Below, piece by piece: positions 1,396-13,969 of a stretch of 64,000 nucleotides of DNA (positions are counted from its first letter, which is position 1; each line of letters starts with the position of its first letter). Origin of the DNA: Stutzerimonas stutzeri (GTDB taxonomy: Bacteria; Pseudomonadota; Gammaproteobacteria; Pseudomonadales; Pseudomonadaceae); contig NZ_JAMOIC010000016.1 in NCBI RefSeq assembly GCF_024448895.1, positions 1 through 64,000 on the forward strand, written 5' to 3'. Both the position numbers and the translations under genes were made by a program. The notes below the pieces were generated by a model. It was not told where the DNA came from and did not search any database. It saw nothing but the letters and a program-made list of their open reading frames with translations.

Positions 1396-1594
1396 GACAT
1401 ATCTCTTCTGTCGTGGATGCGGAGCCAAAGTCTAGTCAGCAAGCGTCCCATGACGGTAGAAGATCAAGGTGACAGATTTGATTAATGTGCTGAATGTTCG
1501 CTTTTGGGCCGGTGGCAGCCAATCTCCGATGCCGCGTTAAGCATCAGGTCAAACGGGCCTCGCCGGTGGAGAGCTCGCGCGTCCAGGCGATGGA

Positions 1595-1848
1595 TTAGCC
1601 GGCAATGGCCGTGAGCTTGGCCAACTGGTCGAGGTCGGTCTGCATGCCTGACGTCTCCCTGATGCGTTTCAGAATCTCGCGTTTCAGTGCGGTGAATTCA
1701 GGCGATAACTTCATGTCCTGGTCGCGCTGCGTAGGCAACGGAACGTCATAGATCGAATCGATCCTGCCCGGGCGCGGCGCCATCAGCACCACGCGGCCGC
1801 CGAGGTAGATGGCTTCTTCGACGTCATGGGTGACGGACAAAATGGTGG
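1595..1848 (-). pseudogene. 3' remnant of an ABC transporter ATPase (SsuB/TauB type)
   Basis: About 82 codons survive. The frame starts abruptly at the REP array and reads ILSVTHDVEEA, the H-loop region of nitrate/sulfonate/taurine-type importer ATPases. It continues with RVVLMAPRPGRI and a normal C-terminal tail. The Walker A, signature and Walker B regions are missing. The in-frame ATG at 1840 falls inside the H-loop motif and cannot be a true start. The break coincides with the first base pairs of the REP array at 1847, so the array or a deletion ending in it removed the 5' two thirds. The source transporter is unknown. Confidence 0.75.
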
Positions 1849-2090
1849 TCGAATAAATTCGACCCTACAGTGCTGCGGTAGGTTTGTAGGGCTGAACTTG
1901 TTCGGCCGAGGTCTGCACGCGTCTTGGCGGCGCAGGTCGAATAAATTCGACCCTACGGTGCTGCGGCAGGTTGTAGGGCTGAACTTGTTCGGCCGGGTTG
2001 CATGCCGTCTTGGAAGCGCAGGTCGAATAAATTCGACCCTACGGTGATGCGGCAGATTGTAGGGCTGAACTTGTTCGGCCGAGGGCTGCA
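1847..2090. repeat. Tandem array of three REP-doublet (REPIN-like) units
   Basis: Three units of about 86-88 bp start at 1847, 1935 and 2021. Each opens with GGTCGAATAAATTCGACCC, itself a palindrome. Each closes with the partly inverted arm TGTAGGGCTGAACTTG followed by TTCGGCC. The arms are variants of the REP arms at 7017 and 63765. The array fills the gap between the ATPase remnant and the end of the aldo/keto reductase gene, which begins 4 bp after the last arm. Confidence 0.9.
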
Positions 2091-3411: not shown

Positions 3412-5214
3412 CTACTGGCGCTGCGCCAACCAGTTTTTCCAACCGCCGAACCCGGTGATATCAGCCGCGCCTTCCAAACCGTAGGGCTCGCAGATGAAGC
3501 CGGTTTCCCAGCGGCCATCGGCCAGTTGCACTTTGCCCAGACCAAGCGGCGCTGGAATACCCGTTAAGAAAGAGCCTAATTCGCTGCTCGGAATTTCCCA
3601 GACTTCCACGTCGATGGCCGCGCCGCCTTGATCGACACGTACCATTCCAGGACGGAATGGCGGTCCGCCGGCCAATGCCCAGAGCTGGTAGTGCGGGGCG
3701 CTCCGTGTGGCTTCAAGCAATCGTCCGCCGCGCTGCTGGAGCTGCCAGTTAAGGGGAAGTCCGTCGAGGTGCGCGCCGCATACGACCACGCGGGCGCGGT
3801 CGTTGCGGGCTGCGTTCTGCGGCGCAGGTGTAGCGGCTGACTGCCCGCCTATCAGGGTGAGTCCCGTCTGATGCTGCAGAGCACCGGCGAGGCTCAGCAG
3901 GTATTGATCGGTGAACACGCGGCCGAACAGTGTGATGCCCCACGGCAGGCCGTTCTGCATGACGGCGGCTGGCACCGCGACGGCGGCGTAGTCCAGCATG
4001 TTCATGAAGTTCGTGTAGTAGCCAAGGTCCGAATTGCGCTTGACGGGTTCGGCATGCAGTTCGTCCAGCGTGACCGGGCGCGGATAGGCCGGCGTTAGTA
4101 CGCAATCGACATCGGCCATGGTCCGATCGCAGACCGCCTTGAGTTGCTGCAGACGGTACTGAGCGCGAAACAACCCCACGGCTGTGGTTCCCGGGGCTTT
4201 TTCCAGCACCGCTTTGATGACGGGTAACACGGCATCGGGCTGCTGCTCGATCAAGTCACCCGCGACGCTGTAGCGTTCGGCGACCCACGGCCCCTCATAG
4301 AGCAGCCGTGCGGCTTCTAGGAAGGGGTTGAAGTCGATCTCGACCGGCTCGCCGCCGATGGCCTTCAGCTGCTCGATTGTTGCTGAAAAGAGTTGCGGGC
4401 TTTCGGGGCAGCCAAGGAATTCCAGCTGCTTAGGCACACCGAAACGGAATGCCGCGGCCTTGCCGAAGGCGGAACCGTCGTTCCAAAGCGGGTTGGCACG
4501 GCTGTACTCGTCTCGCGGGTCGAGCCTGGCGGTCAGCGCCAGCAACATGCTGGCCTCCGCAGCGGTCGATGAAAGAAAGGTGACGCAATCAAGCGTGCGG
4601 CAGGCCGGCACTACGCCTGCGGTAGAGATCAGCCCCTTGCTGGCTTTGAGCCCGATCAGGTTATTCAGCGCGGCCGGTACGCGGCCAGAGCCGGCGGTGT
4701 CTGTACCCAGGGCGAAGCTGCAAATGCCTAACGCAACGGCAAGGGACGAGCCGGCACTTGAGCCGCCGGACGGGTAGTCCGGGTGCACGCTGTTGCGGCA
4801 TTCGCCGTAGGGCGAGCGCGTACCGTTGAGGCCTGTGGCGAACTGGTCGAGGTTGGTCTTGCCCATCGGAACCGCGCCGAGGGCAATCAATTGCGCGACG
4901 ATGGTCGCGCTGGTCGCAGGCGTATAGGCAAAGGCCGGGCAGGCAGCGGTGGTGGGTATTCCGGCCAGGTCGATGTTGTCCTTGATAGCGAAGGGGATGC
5001 CGTAGAGCGGCAGCTCGGCTGGGGATTTGTCGTCCAGCGAGGTGAGGTAGGGCTCCAGCTCGTCGGCGCTGAGCAAATGGATGAAGGCGTTGAATTCGCC
5101 GTTGAGCTCGGCGGCCTTGTCGCGCAGGGCTAGGATCACCTGGCGCGGGGTGATCGCGCCGGTTTCATAGGCGCTGCGCAACGTGGAGAGGTGCAGATCG
5201 AAATCAGTCGTCAT
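3412..5214 (-). CDS. atzF: Allophanate hydrolase
   Basis: A 600-residue amidase-signature enzyme that hydrolyses allophanate to ammonia and CO2, the last step of the guanidine/urea carboxylase pathway. The Ser-cisSer-Lys machinery is visible: Lys in FAIKDNID near residue 76, GGSSAGSSLA near 153 and the nucleophile region GTDTAGSGR near 172. The C-terminal ~125 residues (from VVVCGAHLDGLPLN) form the extra AtzF domain. I chose the ATG at 5214, preceded by GAGGAAG; an in-frame extension to 5280 runs into the upstream repeat and lacks a start signal. It is the last gene of the riboswitch operon, but 553 bp of repeats separate it from the carboxylase gene. Confidence 0.95.
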   Translation of the reverse strand: MTTDFDLHLSTLRSAYETGAITPRQVILALRDKAAELNGEFNAFIHLLSADELEPYLTSLDDKSPAELPLYGIPFAIKDNIDLAGIPTTAACPAFAYTPATSATIVAQLIALGAVPMGKTNLDQFATGLNGTRSPYGECRNSVHPDYPSGGSSAGSSLAVALGICSFALGTDTAGSGRVPAALNNLIGLKASKGLISTAGVVPACRTLDCVTFLSSTAAEASMLLALTARLDPRDEYSRANPLWNDGSAFGKAAAFRFGVPKQLEFLGCPESPQLFSATIEQLKAIGGEPVEIDFNPFLEAARLLYEGPWVAERYSVAGDLIEQQPDAVLPVIKAVLEKAPGTTAVGLFRAQYRLQQLKAVCDRTMADVDCVLTPAYPRPVTLDELHAEPVKRNSDLGYYTNFMNMLDYAAVAVPAAVMQNGLPWGITLFGRVFTDQYLLSLAGALQHQTGLTLIGGQSAATPAPQNAARNDRARVVVCGAHLDGLPLNWQLQQRGGRLLEATRSAPHYQLWALAGGPPFRPGMVRVDQGGAAIDVEVWEIPSSELGSFLTGIPAPLGLGKVQLADGRWETGFICEPYGLEGAADITGFGGWKNWLAQRQ

Positions 5215-5282
5215 GGTTGGCTTCCTCTGTAACGGGCCTGGTCTGTTTGATGTTGGGATCAGGGTGCGGAGTTGCGGCACCG

Positions 5283-5686
5283 CCCCTCACCCCAGCCCTC
5301 TCCCCAAAGGGGCGAGGGGGCTTGTCCGATGTTGCTGCTGACTGCTCGCATGGGCATAGCCGTGATGTACTGGGCGCTGCGTGCTTCCCGTTATCCGAAG
5401 TTTGGTCTGGCAACGGCCCCCACGGCACGCACGATCCGGTCCCCTCTCCCTGAGGGAGAGGGCTAGGGTGAGGGGGAGGCCCCGGTGGCCAGCTACGCTG
5501 CCTAGCCCAATCTCCAGAGGGGAGAGTGGGTTTATCTGATGCAGCTGCGGGCCCTCCGTGTTGGGATCGCCTGGATATGCTTGGCGCCGCGTGCTTTCCG
5601 TTATTCGAAGTTGCGTCTGGCAGCGGTCTCCACGGCACCCACGCTCCAGTCCCCTCTCCCTGAGGGAGAGGGCTAGGGTGAGGGGG
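5283..5686. repeat. Tandem pair of ~200-bp MITE-like elements
   Basis: The first copy (5283-5476) is bounded by inverted repeats: CCCCTCACCCCAGCCCTCTC on the left and, at 5454-5476, the complementary arm GAGAGGGCTAGGGTGAGGGG. A second, more worn copy (5503-5686) repeats the interior at an offset of 210 bp: GTGCTTCCCGTTATCCGAAG at 5381 against GTGCTTTCCGTTATTCGAAG at 5591. It ends in the same right arm. The pair occupies the gap between atzF and the carboxylase gene inside the operon. No transposase is present, so it is a non-autonomous element or an extragenic repeat family. Open frames read through it are not genes. Confidence 0.85.
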
Positions 5687-5767
5687 AAAGATGCGTTGAC
5701 GAATCGCGCTCGGCAAGACAGCGGTCGAAGGCGTGCACCGTTCATGGAACCGTTATAGGGCATGGGC

Positions 5768-8700
5768 TCACTCTGCCTCGATCACCACCACCCGCTGACC
5801 AGCGCGCACGGGCGAGCCGGGCTGCACGCGAACTTCCTTGATCACACCGGCTACCGGCGCGATGAGCGGGATTTCCATCTTCATGCTCTCGAGGATCACC
5901 AGCACGTCGCCGGCTTCGACGCGTTCGCCTTCAGCCACCGAGACCTGCCAGAGATTGCCGGCGATATGGCTTTCGATGCCGTGCTGGCCGTCACCCAGCG
6001 GGGCGTCTTCGCCGAGGTCGGCGGCCACTTCCTCGCTCTCGAAATGCGCCTGGCCTGATGCGATCCAGCGCTGGCGTTCGGCGTCGAAGGCGGCGCGTTG
6101 CTGCTGGCGGAAGGCGTCGATGCCGTCAGCTTCCTGGTCCAGGAATGCCTGGTAATCGGACAGGCGAAGCTCGGTTTCTTCGATGCGCAGCGGGTAGCGC
6201 CCTAGCGGGAAGTCGCGGCGAATCGTCATCAGCTCCTCAGCCGAGACCGGATAGAAACGGATCTGATCGAAGAAGCGCAGCAGCCAGGGCTGGCCGCCGA
6301 AAGCCTCCACCGCGCGGTAGCGGTTCCACATCTGCAGCGTGCGGCCGACGAACTGGTAGCCACCCGGGCCTTCCATGCCGTAGACGCACATGTAAGCGCC
6401 TCCTATGCCTACCGAGTTTTCCGCCGTCCAGGTGCGCGCCGGGTTGTACTTGGTGGTGACCAGGCGGTGACGCGGATCCAGTGGAGTAGCCACCGGGGCG
6501 CCGAGGTAGACGTCGCCCAGGCCCATGACCAGATAGCTGGCCTCGAACACCGTGCGGTACACCTCATCCAGGTTCGGCAGGTCGTTGATGCGACGAATGA
6601 ACTCCAGATTGCTGGGGCACCAGGGCGCGTCCTTGCGCACCGTGGTCATGTACTTCTCGATGGCCAGCTGGCATGCCGGGTCGTCCCAGGAAAGCGGCAG
6701 ATGGACGATGCGCGAGGGCACCTTCAGGTCCCGCGCAGCGCAGACGGCATCCCATTCGCCAGCCACGATCTTAAGTAGCGAATCCAGTGGCAGCGTTTCC
6801 GGTTGGTAGTGGACTTGCAGGGAGCGGATGCCTGGAGTGAGGTCGATGACGCCATCCAGTTGCTTGGCCTCTAGCGCCTGCATCAGCGCATGCCCGCGAA
6901 AGCGCAGTACCAGATCGAGTTCCGGCTCGCCAATCTCCAGCAATAGGTGAGTGTCACCGGCGAGGCGGGCTACCAGGCGGGTGTCGGCGGAACCGAGATC
7001 GAGGACGATGGGGGACGTAGGGGCGAATTTATTCGCCTGTTTTATCGTCTCTGGTCTGGCAGATGAATTCGCCCCTAGATGTAATTCCTCTTGCTGCCTG
7101 ATTGCCAATGCTCGCGCGGTACCGATATCGACCGCCACGAAACGCACCTTATCGCCGGCCTTCAGTTGCCCCAGTTGCCAGAGGTCCGCCTCGATGATGG
7201 TCACCGGGCAGACGAAGCCGCCGAGGCTTGGGCCGTCCGGTCCGAGGATTACCGGCATGTCGCCCGTGAAGTCCACCGCGCCGATGGCGTAAGGGTTGTC
7301 GTGAATGTTCGAGGGATGCAAGCCGGCTTCGCCGCCGCTCTCGCGTACCCATTCAGGTTTCGGTCCGATGAGTCGCACGCCGGTGCGGCTGGAGTTGAAG
7401 TGGACTTCCCAGTCGGTCGCGAAGAATGTCCCGATATAGGCATCAGTGAAGTATTCCGGCGCGCCATGGGGGCCGTAGATCACGCGGATCTCACGTACTG
7501 CAGGCAATGCCGTACGCAGCTCTAGTGGCAGCCTCGCACCCACGCTATCGTCGGCGAGAACGGGAAGGTGCAGCACGTCGCCTGCTCGTAGCGCTCGGCC
7601 AGCGTGCCCGCCGAACTGGCCCAGGGTGAAGGTGCTCCGGCTACCCAGGTAGTCGGGAACCTGAACACCACCGCGGATGCAGAGATAACTGCGCGCACCA
7701 GCCCCGGCAATGGTGCCAAGGGTCAACGTGCTACCAGCCTTGACGAGCGTAGCCGTGTTCATCGGCAGTTCGGCGTCATCGAGTTTCAGTGGGATCTCGG
7801 CACCGGTCACCGCCACCACAGCATCGGTGTTGAAGCGCAGAGTCGGCCCGCTCATGGTGATTTCCAGACTGGCCGCATCGGTCGCATTGCCGAGCAAGCT
7901 GTTGCCCAGGCGCAGCGCACGACTGTCCATTGGACCGGATGGTGGTACGCCGACCGCCCAGTAACCGATTCGGCCGGGATAGTCCTGCACAGTGGTTTGG
8001 GTGCCGGCGCTGATTACCTCGAAGGTGGTGGCGCGGTAGGTCAGGCTTTCGAGGCAGCGGGTCCAGGGAGTGCCTTCGGCGAACGGCGCGTAGGCGAGGA
8101 TCTGGCGCAGGTAATCGCGGTTGGTTTCTACGCCGTACAGCAGGGACTCACCCAGCGCCTTGTCCAGCGAATGACGGGCGGTTTCGCGGTCCGGCTCCCA
8201 GCAGATGACCTTTGCGATCATCGGATCGAAGTAGGGCGGAATCTCACATCCAGCCTCGACCCAGGTGTCGATGCGAAGCGCCTTGCCGTCCGCTGATGGG
8301 AAGGTCACTGCAGTCAACAGGCCTGGGCTCGGTTGGAAGTCCCTACCCGGATCCTCAGCGTAGAGACGCGCCTGAATCGCGTGGCCGCTGGGCTTCAAGT
8401 CCCTGGACAGTTCTGCCAGCGGTGGTAGATCACCGGCTGCCAGCTCGATCATCCAGCGCACCAGATCCACACCCCAGACCTGTTCGGTGACGCCGTGCTC
8501 GACTTGCAGGCGCGTGTTTACTTCTAGGAAGTAAAACTGTTCGGCTTCTGCGTCATAGACGAATTCGACGGTGCCGGCGCTGCGGTAGCGCACCGCCTTG
8601 GCCAACTTGATCGCTGCGTCGCACAGTTGATCGGCCATGCCTGCGGGGAGGTTAGGCGCCGGGGTTTCCTCCAGCACCTTCTGGTTGCGCCGCTGCACCG

Positions 8701-9385
8701 AGCAGTCGCGCACGCCAAGGGCGATTACCTCACCGGTGCCATCGCCGAATACCTGCACTTCGAGGTGGCGGGCGCGCTGGATGTATTTCTCGATGAACAC
8801 GCCCGAGTCGCTGAAGTTGTTCTGGCCAAGGCGTTTGACCGCCTCGAAAGCGTCCGACAGCTCTTCGGCCGAGCGGCAGACACGCATGCCAATGCCGCCA
8901 CCGCCGGCAGTGCTTTTCAGCATCACCGGGTAGCCGACTTCGTCACCGGCCTTCAGCGCGGCGTCGAGATTTTCCAGCAGTTCAGTCCCTTCGAGCATCG
9001 GTACGCCGTGTTGCTTGGCCAGCGCCCGGGCGGTGTGCTTGAGACCAAACACCCTCAGTTGCTCAGGGGTTGGGCCAACAAATGCAATCCCGGCGGCCTC
9101 ACAGGCTTCGGCAAAGGCTGCGTTTTCGGAGAGAAAACCGTAGCCAGTGTGGATGGCTTTTGCGCCGGTTTGCCGGGCGATGCCGAGGATCTTCTCCACG
9201 GCGAGATAGGTATTGGCAGCCGGACCCTCACCCAGGCTATGGGCCTCATCAGCTTGTTGGATATGCAGGCTGGCGGCGTCGGCCTCCGAGTACACGGTCA
9301 CGCCCCGGCAGTCGAGCGCCTTGAGGGTACGCAGGATGCGGCAGGCGATAGCGCCGCGGTTGGCGATCAGCAGTTTGTCGAACAT
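5768..9385 (-). CDS. Biotin-dependent guanidine (urea) carboxylase
   Basis: A 1205-residue ATP- and biotin-dependent carboxylase. An N-terminal biotin carboxylase domain (LLIANRGAIACRI; ATP-grasp loop GGGGIGMR near residue 160) is followed from about 455 by the two carboxyltransferase halves of KipA/KipI (AHS2/AHS1) type. The biotinyl domain ends the protein, with the carrier lysine in ESMKME near residue 1168. Annotated members are called urea carboxylase. Those in riboswitch operons with DUF1989 proteins act on guanidine, so I infer carboxyguanidine as product. The ATG at 9385, with GAGGG upstream, is preferred over a TTG two codons earlier. Residues ~769-789 are encoded by an inserted REPIN (7017-7078) at a linker before the second carboxyltransferase half. 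Confidence 0.93.
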   Translation of the reverse strand: MFDKLLIANRGAIACRILRTLKALDCRGVTVYSEADAASLHIQQADEAHSLGEGPAANTYLAVEKILGIARQTGAKAIHTGYGFLSENAAFAEACEAAGIAFVGPTPEQLRVFGLKHTARALAKQHGVPMLEGTELLENLDAALKAGDEVGYPVMLKSTAGGGGIGMRVCRSAEELSDAFEAVKRLGQNNFSDSGVFIEKYIQRARHLEVQVFGDGTGEVIALGVRDCSVQRRNQKVLEETPAPNLPAGMADQLCDAAIKLAKAVRYRSAGTVEFVYDAEAEQFYFLEVNTRLQVEHGVTEQVWGVDLVRWMIELAAGDLPPLAELSRDLKPSGHAIQARLYAEDPGRDFQPSPGLLTAVTFPSADGKALRIDTWVEAGCEIPPYFDPMIAKVICWEPDRETARHSLDKALGESLLYGVETNRDYLRQILAYAPFAEGTPWTRCLESLTYRATTFEVISAGTQTTVQDYPGRIGYWAVGVPPSGPMDSRALRLGNSLLGNATDAASLEITMSGPTLRFNTDAVVAVTGAEIPLKLDDAELPMNTATLVKAGSTLTLGTIAGAGARSYLCIRGGVQVPDYLGSRSTFTLGQFGGHAGRALRAGDVLHLPVLADDSVGARLPLELRTALPAVREIRVIYGPHGAPEYFTDAYIGTFFATDWEVHFNSSRTGVRLIGPKPEWVRESGGEAGLHPSNIHDNPYAIGAVDFTGDMPVILGPDGPSLGGFVCPVTIIEADLWQLGQLKAGDKVRFVAVDIGTARALAIRQQEELHLGANSSARPETIKQANKFAPTSPIVLDLGSADTRLVARLAGDTHLLLEIGEPELDLVLRFRGHALMQALEAKQLDGVIDLTPGIRSLQVHYQPETLPLDSLLKIVAGEWDAVCAARDLKVPSRIVHLPLSWDDPACQLAIEKYMTTVRKDAPWCPSNLEFIRRINDLPNLDEVYRTVFEASYLVMGLGDVYLGAPVATPLDPRHRLVTTKYNPARTWTAENSVGIGGAYMCVYGMEGPGGYQFVGRTLQMWNRYRAVEAFGGQPWLLRFFDQIRFYPVSAEELMTIRRDFPLGRYPLRIEETELRLSDYQAFLDQEADGIDAFRQQQRAAFDAERQRWIASGQAHFESEEVAADLGEDAPLGDGQHGIESHIAGNLWQVSVAEGERVEAGDVLVILESMKMEIPLIAPVAGVIKEVRVQPGSPVRAGQRVVVIEAE
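7017..7078. repeat. REPIN inside the carboxylase coding sequence
   Basis: The 62-bp segment starts GTAGGGGCGAATTTATTCGCC and ends GGCAGATGAATTCGCCCC followed by TAG, an inverted copy of the first arm with about 17 of 21 matching positions. The first arm is nearly identical to the intergenic REPIN arms at 63765 and 63819. The carboxylase frame stays open through it, adding about 20 residues (HLGANSSARPETIKQANKFA). Confidence 0.85.
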
Positions 9386-9614
9386 CGTCAAATCCCTCAG
9401 GGGGGAGGCGGGCCGTCCCGCTTTTATTCATTCGAAGCCACGGTCGTCCGTGGTGAGGCGTTGTGTGCCCGGAGGTGAACGGCTGAGCTGTGCCGCATCA
9501 CTTTCCGAGAGGACCGAGAGGTCAATGGCCTTCAGGCCGGTCCATCTGCTGCAGCTCGATCTCCTGCGAGTGAGCGATCACGGAGGGCAGCGCCCTGGGC
9601 GAGGGCTGGAGCGC

Positions 9615-10250
9615 TCAATCCCACACCAGCACCTCAGCGGGCGTCGGATTCCAGCCATTGCACGGGTTGTTCAGCTGCGGGCAGTTGGAGATCAGCACGA
9701 TTACGTCCTGCTCGGCTTTGAGTTCAACGTACTTGCCGGGGGCGGAGATGCCGTCCTCGAAGGTCAGGCCACCATCAACGGTGACGGGCACGTTCATGAA
9801 GAAGTTGATGTTGGCGCCGATATCGCGCTTCTCCAGACGACCATCGTGCAGGCTGGCGCGCAGGAAGTTGTCGCGGCAGCTGTGCATATAGCGCTTGTCC
9901 AGCGCATAGCGGACCACATTGCTCTCCTGGGCGCAGGCGCCGCCGAGCGTATCGTGGCGCCCACAGGTGTCCGCCGTGATGGTCAGGAGCGGGTTGCCCA
10001 GGTTCGAATACAGCACCGTGCCGGCGGTGAGGTAGACCTTGTTCTGCTTGCGCAGGGTGCGCTGCGGGTCGAAGCGTTCGCGCGGGTTGCGAGCACTGAA
10101 GAACAGGGTGTCGATTGCCTGATTACCCTCCATGTCCAACAGGCGCAGGGTCTGGCCTGCGCTCACTTCGAACAGGTAGGGCTCACCTGCCGGAATGACA
10201 TGACGGAAAACGGCGGTTTCAGGGTGCAGCTGGCTTTCAAGAATGGTCAT
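9615..10250 (-). CDS. DUF1989 protein, urea carboxylase-associated protein 2 (carboxyguanidine deiminase subunit)
   Basis: A 211-residue member of the DUF1989 family, long called urea amidolyase-associated protein. In guanidine-degrading bacteria the two DUF1989 proteins together (CgdAB) deiminate carboxyguanidine to allophanate, bridging the carboxylase and AtzF. Family features include the PAGEPYLFEVSAGQTLRLLD start and the TADTCGRHDTLGG motif, whose Cys and His are candidate metal ligands. A strong AGGAGGTG precedes the ATG at 10250. It follows its paralogue by 11 bp. Which of the two corresponds to CgdA or CgdB I cannot say. Confidence 0.88.
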   Translation of the reverse strand: MTILESQLHPETAVFRHVIPAGEPYLFEVSAGQTLRLLDMEGNQAIDTLFFSARNPRERFDPQRTLRKQNKVYLTAGTVLYSNLGNPLLTITADTCGRHDTLGGACAQESNVVRYALDKRYMHSCRDNFLRASLHDGRLEKRDIGANINFFMNVPVTVDGGLTFEDGISAPGKYVELKAEQDVIVLISNCPQLNNPCNGWNPTPAEVLVWD

Positions 10251-10261
10251 GGGGCACCTCC

Positions 10262-10990
10262 TCAGATATAGAGCCGTTCAGTGTTATGGAAGGCGCGGCC
10301 GTTCTCCGGGCGCGAGGTACGGCAGAGCACGCTGATGCCGTCGCTGTCCACACGCTGCCAGCTGAGCTGGACGGGTTTCGGCGCATAGACCGGGCTTGGA
10401 TCCATTGGGTGCTGCAGGGCGGTGAGTACCACCAGCGTATCCATCGGCGCATAAAGCTCGACGTAGCTGCCAGCCGTGGAATTGTCGGGGTGAAAAGCGA
10501 AGCCGCCGTCGGCGTCCACGGTAACCTTGCTGAACAGGTTGAGCGTCATCAGCAAGTCCTGCAGGTTCAGGTTCCACTTGCCCATTTCCACCAGCAGGTT
10601 ATCGACGCCGTTACGGAAAAAGCCGTTGCGCAGCTCCTGATAGCGACCCTGGCCGTACTTCTCGGCGACTTCATCGGCGTTCAGTACGCCGCCAAAGCTG
10701 TCGTGCCAGCCGCAGGTGTCGGCGGTGATGCAGGCCAGTACGCGGCCCATGTCCGAATACAGGCAATGGCCGGCTGATAGCTTGGCGGTGTGCTGGCCTT
10801 TGAGCGAATCCGGCAGGTTAAGGCGCTCGCTTTTTTCGGCTGCGTTGAACAGCATCAGGCTGACGTTAGCGCCGCCTTCAATGTCGGTGAAACGCAGCAG
10901 CTGCCCACGCTTGAGCACGAAAGAGGTATGGCCGCCGCCTGGAAGGGTTTCTTCGTAAAGCGTCGGGCGGATGGCGAGTGAAGCGCTCAT
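10262..10990 (-). CDS. DUF1989 protein, urea carboxylase-associated protein 1 (carboxyguanidine deiminase subunit)
   Basis: A 242-residue paralogue of the next gene, sharing the TADTCGWHDSFGG motif and the GGHTSFVLKRGQLLRFTD opening. It is likely the partner subunit of the carboxyguanidine deiminase. The ATG at 10990 is chosen over an upstream in-frame start at 11047 because AAGGAG precedes it and the longer form would overlap the ATPase gene. It begins one base after the ATPase stop codon, so translation is probably coupled. Confidence 0.88.
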   Translation of the reverse strand: MSASLAIRPTLYEETLPGGGHTSFVLKRGQLLRFTDIEGGANVSLMLFNAAEKSERLNLPDSLKGQHTAKLSAGHCLYSDMGRVLACITADTCGWHDSFGGVLNADEVAEKYGQGRYQELRNGFFRNGVDNLLVEMGKWNLNLQDLLMTLNLFSKVTVDADGGFAFHPDNSTAGSYVELYAPMDTLVVLTALQHPMDPSPVYAPKPVQLSWQRVDSDGISVLCRTSRPENGRAFHNTERLYI

Positions 10991-10991
10991 G

Positions 10992-11831
10992 TCAGGCTCC
11001 TTGATTGACTGTATGCAGAGCGCCGAGCTGGGTAGGCAGGTCGCCAATGGCGGCGCGTGCGACCCGGCGTTCGGAGTTCAGCGGGATGTCATAGGTCACC
11101 CGTGCGCCGTAAGCGCCGGGTGCGTGCGGGTCGAGACGAGTCTTGTCGAATACCAAGATGCGGGTGCCGAGGGTGAAGCCTTCGGACAGGTCGTGAGTGA
11201 CCATGAACACCGTCAGCCGGGTCTCCTGCCAGAGCTGCAGCAGCAGCTCGTGCATATCCTTGCGTATGCCCGGGTCTAGCGCCCCGAATGGCTCGTCGAG
11301 CAGCAGCACGCGAGGCTTCATGATCAGCGCCTGGGCGATGGCCAACCGTTGTTGCATGCCGCCGGAGAGCTGCGCGGGGTATTTGTCCAGCGAGTGGGCA
11401 AGTCCGACATTACGCAGGATCATTTCTGCCTGTTCGCGCGCATCACGCTTACGGCTACCGAACAGGCGGCCCAACAACGGCGCCCTGGGCAGCTCCAGCC
11501 CGAGGGCGACGTTGTCCAGCACGGTCAGGTGGGGGAATACCGAGTAGCGCTGAAACACGACGCCACGGCTGGCATCCGGTTCGTTGGCGATCGGCGTGCC
11601 ATCGAGCAAAATCTCGCCGCGACTGGCTCGTTCCTGACCCAATAGCAATCTCAGAAAGGTAGATTTGCCACAGCCTGACGCGCCCACCAGCGTGCAGAAC
11701 TCACCTTCGTTGACGCTCAGATTCAGCCTTTCCAGCACGACCTGGTCACCGTATTCCTGCCAGACGTTGTTGACTTGGATGAAGGGGCTGGGCGACTGCT
11801 CGACGGCTTGGCTCACGATGATCTCACTCAT
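10992..11831 (-). CDS. ABC transporter ATPase (NitT/TauT type), putative guanidine importer
   Basis: A 279-residue importer ATPase. Walker A is GASGCGKST near residue 40, the signature is LSGGMQQR, Walker B is VLLLDEPFGALD and the H-loop is FMVTHDL. It belongs to the nitrate/sulfonate/taurine family that accompanies riboswitch-controlled guanidine carboxylase genes. Its start overlaps the permease stop by four bases (ATGA). The substrate is inferred from the operon. The remnant ATPase at 1595 is a different protein with a different C-terminus. Confidence 0.93.
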   Translation of the reverse strand: MSEIIVSQAVEQSPSPFIQVNNVWQEYGDQVVLERLNLSVNEGEFCTLVGASGCGKSTFLRLLLGQERASRGEILLDGTPIANEPDASRGVVFQRYSVFPHLTVLDNVALGLELPRAPLLGRLFGSRKRDAREQAEMILRNVGLAHSLDKYPAQLSGGMQQRLAIAQALIMKPRVLLLDEPFGALDPGIRKDMHELLLQLWQETRLTVFMVTHDLSEGFTLGTRILVFDKTRLDPHAPGAYGARVTYDIPLNSERRVARAAIGDLPTQLGALHTVNQGA

Positions 11832-12643
11832 GACTTGGCCCCCTCGTACCAGGGGAAGGCCAGCTGGGTGAGCTTGCGCAGGCCGAAATCCATGCTCCAG
11901 GCGAGCAGGGTGATCCAGGCTACGTAGGGCAGGATCACGTCCATCGCCAGGTAGCGCCGTACCAGAAAAATTCGATAGCCCAGCCCATCGGTGGACGCGA
12001 TGGCCTCTGCTGCGATGAGGAACAGCCAGGCGGAACCGAGCACCAGTCGGAGTGCGATCAGCAACCGCGGCATTAGCTGTGGCAGAACCACGCGAAGAAT
12101 CAGCGTCCAGGTGTTGGCGCCCAGTGTTTGCGCCTTGATCAAGAGTTCCGGCGGCAATTCACGGGCCCGCTGTTCGAGGTCGCGGGCCAGTACCGGCGTG
12201 ACGCCAATTACGATGAGCATCACCTTGGATAGCTCGCCAAGTCCGAACACGATGAACAAAATCGGCAGAATCGCCAGTGGCGGTACCATCGACAGCACCG
12301 TCAGCAAGGGCGACAGCGGCGCACTGAGCAGCGGCAGGGTGCCGGCAGCCACGCCCAGGCACAGCCCGGCAATCGCGGCGATACCGAGCCCGATGCCCAG
12401 ACGTTTGAGGCTGGAGGCGGTGTCCTGCCAGAACAGGTAGTCGCCGCTGCGCTTGTCTGGCGTGAAGGCCAATCGCTCCACCGCGCTGGACATCTGGGTG
12501 AAGCTGGGCAGGAGTTTGTCGTTTGGGTTGGTTTCCAGTCGCTGCGCGGAACTGGTCAGGTAGGCGAAAAGCAGAAGGGCGAAGGGCAGGATTACCAGCA
12601 GCGTCCAGCCGGTACGACCTGGCACACGATTGATCAAACGCAT
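11828..12643 (-). CDS. ABC transporter permease (NitT/TauT type), putative guanidine importer
   Basis: A 271-residue integral membrane protein with about six hydrophobic segments. The cytoplasmic EAA loop that contacts the ATPase is visible (EQRARELPPELLIKAQTLGA). I prefer the ATG at 12643 (MRLINRVPGRTGW), which fits family N-termini; the ATG at 12673 would add ten polar residues. Neither has a strong ribosome binding site. It is the first gene after the riboswitch. No periplasmic binding protein gene lies in the operon, although importers of this family normally need one. Confidence 0.9.
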   Translation of the reverse strand: MRLINRVPGRTGWTLLVILPFALLLFAYLTSSAQRLETNPNDKLLPSFTQMSSAVERLAFTPDKRSGDYLFWQDTASSLKRLGIGLGIAAIAGLCLGVAAGTLPLLSAPLSPLLTVLSMVPPLAILPILFIVFGLGELSKVMLIVIGVTPVLARDLEQRARELPPELLIKAQTLGANTWTLILRVVLPQLMPRLLIALRLVLGSAWLFLIAAEAIASTDGLGYRIFLVRRYLAMDVILPYVAWITLLAWSMDFGLRKLTQLAFPWYEGAKS

Positions 12644-12718
12644 GGGGAGAGCCCCCGCGCTATCGGGGAGCATTGCCGTGGATCGGTCTTATGAAATCCG
12701 AGCGATGGCATAAAAGAG

Positions 12719-12803
12719 CCTCCAGTGAGTGGACATGGCAAAGGAGCTGCGTATCAAACGCCGTCTCCCGGGCTTTTATCCCGCCGTGTAACCTCACTGG
12801 AGG
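12719..12803 (-). terminator. Riboswitch-controlled terminator/antiterminator
   Basis: In the minus-strand transcript, CCTCCAGTGAG inside the aptamer (12803-12793) is an exact 11-base complement of CTCACTGGAGG (12729-12719), which is followed at once by CUCUUUUAU. The pairing would disrupt the aptamer and form a terminator with a ~63-nt loop. Ligand-bound aptamer would sequester the first strand and allow read-through. This is the ON-switch logic known for guanidine-I riboswitches that control transcription. Confidence 0.75.
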
Positions 12804-12850
12804 TCGCCAACTCTCGGACCAGCCACTCGCATTGCGAGCCGGAACCCTAG
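12764..12850 (-). ncRNA. Guanidine-I riboswitch (ykkC) aptamer
   Basis: The minus strand reads CTAGGGTTCCG, GGTCCGAGAG, GACCTCC, ACACGGCGGGATAAAAGCCC and GGGAGA in the order and spacing of the ykkC class. A short variable hairpin (GGCTCGCAATGCGAG) follows the first block. The class binds guanidinium and typically controls guanidine carboxylases, DUF1989 proteins and exporters. Here it lies about 120 nt before the permease gene, so it should control the whole downstream operon. Confidence 0.97.
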
Positions 12851-12906
12851 TCAGCTATTTCTGAATTTTCTCGTCCGTGAGCCGCAGCTTCCTGGCAAAG
12901 AAGTAT

Positions 12907-12924
12907 TAGCAAGAGGGGTGCCAG
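12907..12924 (-). promoter_or_regulatory. Sigma-54 promoter of the guanidine operon
   Basis: The minus strand reads CTGGCACCCCTCTTGCTA. GG at -24 and GC at -12 are 12 bases apart, matching TGGCAC-N5-TTGC exactly. Transcription would start near 12897, giving about 47 nt before the riboswitch. RpoN use implies an enhancer-binding activator, as expected for a nitrogen-scavenging operon. Confidence 0.8.
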
Positions 12925-12989
12925 GTGATTTCAGCCCCCGTATTACTGGCTGCACGCCGGGATCTGTCACTGACCTGAGACGAGTTCTA

Positions 12990-13004
12990 GCGCCTTGATG
13001 GTGC
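12990..13004. promoter_or_regulatory. Candidate NtrC enhancer site
   Basis: GCGCC-TTGAT-GGTGC is a near-palindrome with one mismatch to the GCACC-N5-GGTGC core of NtrC sites. It lies about 100 bp upstream of the predicted sigma-54 start, a usual enhancer distance. Only one site was seen, so this is tentative. Confidence 0.4.
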
Positions 13005-13102
13005 GCAATACATGGCGATGCCCCCTAATGGATCAAACTGGTCCCAGGTCGGGGCATCTCGGCAAGAGCGTCAGTGACTAGCAGCGCACCGAGAGGCGGT
13101 AA

Positions 13103-13969
<867 letters not shown>

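Follow-up and report, generated by a model that had tools for sequence, protein, structure and literature searches.

Gene order and gene identities

The window, a 64 kb stretch of Stutzerimonas stutzeri DNA, was searched for open reading frames (ORFs), with protein profiles and with Rfam models. Its minus strand carries an operon which, as transcribed, runs from an NtrC-type dyad over a -24/-12 element, a Guanidine-I aptamer and a leader ORF to an ABC permease and an ATPase, followed by two DUF1989 genes, a Guanidine-II aptamer, a carboxylase, a pair of repeats and atzF. The features are:

12990-13004, minus: NtrC-type dyad GCACCATCAAGGCGC, one mismatch to GCACC-N5-GGTGC
12908-12923, minus: sigma54-type -24/-12 element TGGCACCCCTCTTGCT
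12763-12861, minus: Guanidine-I aptamer (RF00442), full-length match, 90.7 bits (gathering score 63)
12793-12803, minus: 5' arm of P2, CCTCCAGTGAG, proposed anti-Shine-Dalgarno
12719-12729, minus: CTCACTGGAGG, complement of the P2 arm, holding the Shine-Dalgarno GGAGG
12634-12711, minus: leader ORF of 25 codons, its stop overlapping the permease start
11828-12643, minus: ABC permease (PF00528), start set at the ATG kept in relatives
10992-11831, minus: ABC ATPase (PF00005, Pfam match)
10262-10990, minus: UAAP1, DUF1989, carboxyguanidine deiminase subunit (TIGR03425, 324.5 bits, cut-off 206)
9615-10250, minus: UAAP2, DUF1989, carboxyguanidine deiminase subunit (TIGR03424, 318.4 bits, cut-off 284.7)
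9408-9455, minus: Guanidine-II aptamer (RF01068), 40 bits (gathering score 32)
5768-9385, minus: guanidine carboxylase with D705 and D958 (TIGR02712, 1882 bits)
5291-5687, minus: 187-nt repeat, present twice in the gap from carboxylase to atzF (not a gene)
3412-5214, minus: allophanate hydrolase, atzF (TIGR02713, 778.5 bits, cut-off 511)

The DUF1989 pair was assigned to CgdAB, since it consists of UAAP1 and UAAP2 and both exceed their NCBIfam cut-offs. The carboxylase and the allophanate hydrolase likewise score above the curated cut-offs, so that the enzyme set of the original prediction holds. The locus belongs with good support to an operon type already known, one for guanidine as nitrogen source.

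The original prediction had also placed a complete guanidine-I aptamer at 12764-12850, which the covariance model recovers at 12763-12861. It had overlooked the second aptamer before the carboxylase, which has two hairpins with ACGR loops and scores above threshold, and its list of regulatory parts was to that extent incomplete. Across the 64 kb no Rfam family other than RF00442 and RF01068 reaches its gathering threshold, and the whole genome has one match for each of the two guanidine aptamer classes. By covariance score both are putative guanidine sensors.

The two 187-nt repeat copies have palindromic ends and are mechanically read as a 158-aa ORF. As an accessory enzyme, at the site of mgdH and mgdL in Vreelandella, this ORF was rejected: it has no Pfam or NCBIfam match and no match among the ORFs of 17 congener stretches, and is mostly the two repeats. 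The repeat pair may affect expression of atzF.

Guanidine or urea as substrate

Residues D705 and D958 correspond to K. lactis positions 1330 and 1584 (alignment to 3va7, numbering via 5i8i). According to the accessible text of PMC11410670, Asp at these two positions defines guanidine carboxylases, and the window enzyme combines both with the TIGR02712 match; the K. lactis (yeast) chain has Asn at 1330. Column 705 holds Asp in all 92 loci with a match there, the other five of the 97 searched loci being without one. The genome has a single TIGR02712 match above cut-off. The NCBIfam name of that family, urea_carbox, would fit a true urea carboxylase, but such an enzyme is very improbable here given both diagnostic Asp residues, the two guanidine aptamers, the DUF1989 pair and a urease gene present separately in the genome. 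The aspartates, the aptamers and the DUF1989 pair also bear out the earlier reading of this 'urea carboxylase' operon as a guanidine operon. As judged from sequence, an operon for guanidine, not urea, under control of nitrogen status and guanidine is well supported.

The promoter

The -24/-12 element had been called perfect, and nearly is: GG-N10-GC is intact, with one mismatch to the consensus. It forms a conserved island amid divergent DNA in 23 aligned Stutzerimonas leaders. Upstream lies the dyad, whose pattern GCACC-N5-GGTGC we take to be an NtrC-type motif, and rpoN and ntrC are both encoded in the genome, so that by sequence the parts of a sigma54-NtrC promoter are all present. No sigma70 promoter was found in 12600-13210.

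The named relatives were picked by similarity to the window's UAAP2, as the best 80 of 589. In these 80 loci an aptamer model built from Stutzerimonas gave 101 Guanidine-I matches in 78 loci and the Guanidine-II model matched in 79, both locus counts being tallied by hand from the result tables. Sigma54-type sites were counted if they lay within 120 nt upstream of a Guanidine-I match and had no more than two mismatches. Among these best 80 loci such a site precedes 96 of the 101 matches, compared with 2.06 expected from dinucleotide shuffles; the five without one include an Acetobacter locus (L124) and a Stutzerimonas operon (L088). Of 20000 randomly placed 200-nt windows from these loci, 334 have a site at up to two mismatches when GG and GC are kept fixed. 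The dyad, allowing one mismatch, is found at 45 of the 101 matches from the same best 80 loci (1.99 in shuffles), and 19 controls with reordered half-sites gave 0-7. In one Stutzerimonas subgroup the dyad is GCCCC/GGGGC or weak.

An evenly drawn class sample had Guanidine-I in 29 of 369 genomes, this one included; outside this genome there were 37 matches, and the 29 with loci were scored. The sigma54-type site is present in 23 of these 29 (0.24 in shuffles) and absent in six, and the NtrC-type dyad is present in 12 (0.42 in shuffles). The sigma54-type site is conserved across Pseudomonas, Enterobacterales and Burkholderiales loci.

We take COG3665 to be the DUF1989 family. Within the accessible text of PMC12316311, 102 COG3665 genes are predicted to be under sigma54, 59% of them named urea carboxylase. 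In the accessible text of PMC5491218, a urea carboxylase gene of B. cenocepacia is expressed six-fold less when ntrC is mutated, and two genes adjoining it are marked 'na(m)'. The sigma54 promoter could be real and yet answer to another enhancer-binding protein, without reporting nitrogen limitation, for the dyad goes undetected at one mismatch in 56 of the 101 matches and the genome encodes several NtrC-like activators. The enrichment of the dyad over shuffled and reordered half-sites and the ntrC dependence in B. cenocepacia argue against this, and we regard it as improbable.

Masking or termination by the Guanidine-I platform

The P2 arm at 12803-12793 can form an 11-bp helix with 12729-12719, followed by CTCTTTTA (T4), which is the 'matching terminator' of the original prediction. 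Helix and T-run are present in the window, but the T-run is not conserved in the genus, and GGAG(G)-ATG is conserved instead. The Stutzerimonas leader set (30 loci of 67 matches, giving 26 unique leaders) keeps GGAG(G)-ATG in 26 of 26 and a T-run of at least four in six of 26. Among Enterobacterales leaders 10 of 13 have a run of at least five T, versus one of 74 Pseudomonadaceae rows. A terminator scan, which allows loops of 3-8 only and is blind to the long-range helix, found none. A scan for a 9-bp helix with T-tract was rejected as a general terminator test, being undiscriminating (10 of 78 leaders versus 8 of 78 once the sequence downstream was shuffled).

Pairing between P2 and the ribosome site was scored in 111 unique leaders from the genus, named and class sets. 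The mean helix score is 7.83 for matched partners versus 6.89 for permuted ones (maximum of 50: 7.15) and 5.40 in shuffles; pairing in fixed register gave P = 0.0012 over 26 distinct types from genus and named rows, several of which pair only within the core, the 111 rows there not being made unique and 57 being one type, and kinship among leaders inflates both permutation tests. Because GGAG(G)-ATG is kept, the T-run is not, and matched helices are longer than permuted ones, the Guanidine-I platform of this lineage looks translational, acting by masking of the Shine-Dalgarno.

The window's own CTCTTTTA after the helix counts against masking and could be a weak terminator. Together with the T-runs of the Enterobacterales, and with reviews that give Guanidine-I as usually transcriptional with a terminator as platform (PMC12186494, accessible text), it would suit classical intrinsic termination, with GGAGG merely the ribosome site in the 3' arm of a terminator. 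The scarcity of T-runs in Stutzerimonas and in Pseudomonadaceae at large and the lack of excess in the helix and T-tract scan make this unlikely, though it deserves some weight. We suspect that Enterobacterales Guanidine-I leaders use both masking and termination. Masking might instead work mainly via Rho, an untranslated leader ORF ending the transcript so that guanidine would control the RNA level indirectly. An untranslated leader with a polar layout would suit this, as would the tie between translation and Rho that the accessible text of PMC12508155 cites for riboswitch operons, but judging from the separate Guanidine-II aptamer before the carboxylase, the mRNA seems to extend that far. 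We hold Rho action of this kind to be distinctly unlikely.

The leader ORF and the binding protein

In 25 of the 26 unique Stutzerimonas leaders, the window included, GGAG(G)-ATG opens a leader ORF, and in the remaining one a binding-protein gene. These 25 leader ORFs (30 loci of 67 matches) have 25-42 codons in eight length values with the frame always kept, and in all 25, which are without a binding-protein gene, the stop falls at an identical position within the permease start, ATGCGYYTGA. No clear purifying selection on the leader peptide was found (pooled pS 0.20 versus pN 0.18). Since eight lengths occur with the frame always kept and pS and pN are this close, translation of the leader ORF seems to count more than its peptide sequence.

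By profile search and comparison with congener stretches the operon is without a substrate-binding-protein gene. The 'importer genes' of the original prediction are therefore present as permease and ATPase, but the binding protein is not encoded with them; the sole TIGR03427 match of the genome lies on another contig (C18), where it follows the gene of a type III glutamine synthetase. Among 56 Stutzerimonas genomes 35 have Guanidine-I, one of these with a match below the curated cut-off. A TIGR03427 protein is encoded in 34 of these 35 versus none of the 21 others, a co-occurrence from which we infer that the remote binding protein serves the importer of this operon. Four genomes (G002, G003, G009, G025) have the binding-protein gene directly 3' of a Guanidine-I, and in the three compared for distance (G023, G033, G050) the gene shares a contig with the operon, roughly 23-35 kb away from the operon's head.

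At the remote site, the binding-protein gene and the type III glutamine synthetase gene adjoin (L085 on contig C18, 9776-10867 and 10871-12235), and a TATACA...TGTATA dyad is conserved upstream of this type of binding-protein unit in four of four genomes compared. A sigma54 site is not claimed for it; in four of four stretches even the best candidate departs from the consensus at two positions, one of them in the -12 GC.

Second Guanidine-I units in relatives

Some congeners have a second Guanidine-I unit (L065 12143-18883, L203 680-2409, and also L062), with a sigma54-type site upstream in five of six named Stutzerimonas loci. Its genes encode a binding protein, a fatty-acid-desaturase-like protein, short-chain dehydrogenases, an EamA transporter, a creatininase, an isochorismatase, a beta-lactamase-fold protein, a permease and an ATPase, and it is possibly a route for substituted guanidines. 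In three loci (L092, L093, L097) three Guanidine-I matches lie within about 6 kb with a sigma54-type site at each, and nine other Pseudomonas loci have two matches about 1.4-1.5 kb apart. At 1492-1850 (minus), close to the contig start and next to short repeats, the window contains a remnant that shares about 84-86% identity with the 3' part of the ABC ATPase gene of L203, which lies downstream of that congener's second unit. This genome seems to have lost the second unit, because it has one Guanidine-I match only.

Comparison with known operons

Dual-riboswitch guanidine carboxylase operons are described by Sinn 2021 (via the accessible text of PMC12186494) in the enterobacteria Raoultella, Erwinia and Klebsiella. 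As in the window, Guanidine-I goes there with importer and deiminase genes and Guanidine-II with the carboxylase and the allophanate hydrolase. Their importer genes are together, whereas the window has a leader ORF in place of the binding-protein gene and no conserved T-run in its platform. The gca operon of Vreelandella boliviensis likewise has class I at its head and class II before the carboxylase (PMC12508155, accessible text as before); both aptamers bind guanidine experimentally, class II without discriminating methylguanidine from guanidine. In V. boliviensis mgdH and mgdL lie between gca and atzF, where the window has only the repeat pair, and class I is presumed there to act on a terminator, while we read the window's platform as masking.

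For genes named urea carboxylase, sigma54 regulation is predicted in PMC12316311 and lower expression without intact ntrC is reported in PMC5491218; in their accessible text the latter is without the word 'riboswitch' and the former has it only in a reference. A literature search, mostly short of full text, found no paper joining guanidine riboswitches with sigma54/NtrC and none joining Guanidine-I with a leader ORF. By sequence comparison, the operon has a promoter layer kept far beyond the genus and probably a translational variant of Guanidine-I control.

Proposed control of the operon

With a probability of about 0.6 we read the locus as a guanidine-assimilation operon with three predicted control layers, sigma54/NtrC, masking by Guanidine-I, and Guanidine-II. 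The sites suggest that under nitrogen limitation phosphorylated NtrC, bound at the dyad near 13000, would activate sigma54 polymerase at 12908-12923. When guanidine is lacking, the 5' arm of P2 (CCUCCAGUGAG) would pair with CUCACUGGAGG and hide the Shine-Dalgarno of the leader ORF; guanidine would stabilise P2 and free it. Since the leader ORF overlaps the permease start at its stop, the importer genes would then be opened by translational coupling, and their importer, as co-occurrence suggests, would borrow a binding protein encoded elsewhere. The Guanidine-II class acts on translation, and in the same mRNA it would gate translation of the carboxylase. The carboxylase would act on guanidine first, the DUF1989 pair would deiminate the product to allophanate, and hydrolysis of this would yield ammonia and CO2, a route established in relatives.

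An AND gate of nitrogen limitation and guanidine had been proposed, and sequence supports both inputs; the likely mechanism differs, being translational and having a second sensor. Given the masking platform and Guanidine-II before the carboxylase, the gate probably combines transcription by way of sigma54/NtrC with translation that depends on guanidine at two sites. More broadly, we give slightly better than even odds to the following taken as a whole: that Guanidine-I of Pseudomonadaceae is translational and nitrogen status alone, through sigma54/NtrC, sets transcription; that two unrelated aptamers let guanidine open translation at two places in a single mRNA; that in most Stutzerimonas examined the binding-protein gene formerly opened by Guanidine-I has moved away; and that it left behind a frame-kept leader ORF which carries ribosomes into the permease start.

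If translation of the first cistrons alone is opened by the first aptamer, the carboxylase needs a gate of its own, which would explain two different guanidine riboswitches in one operon. Should a nitrogen-limitation promoter stand before Guanidine-I in many proteobacteria, riboswitch tests in rich medium could miss expression entirely.
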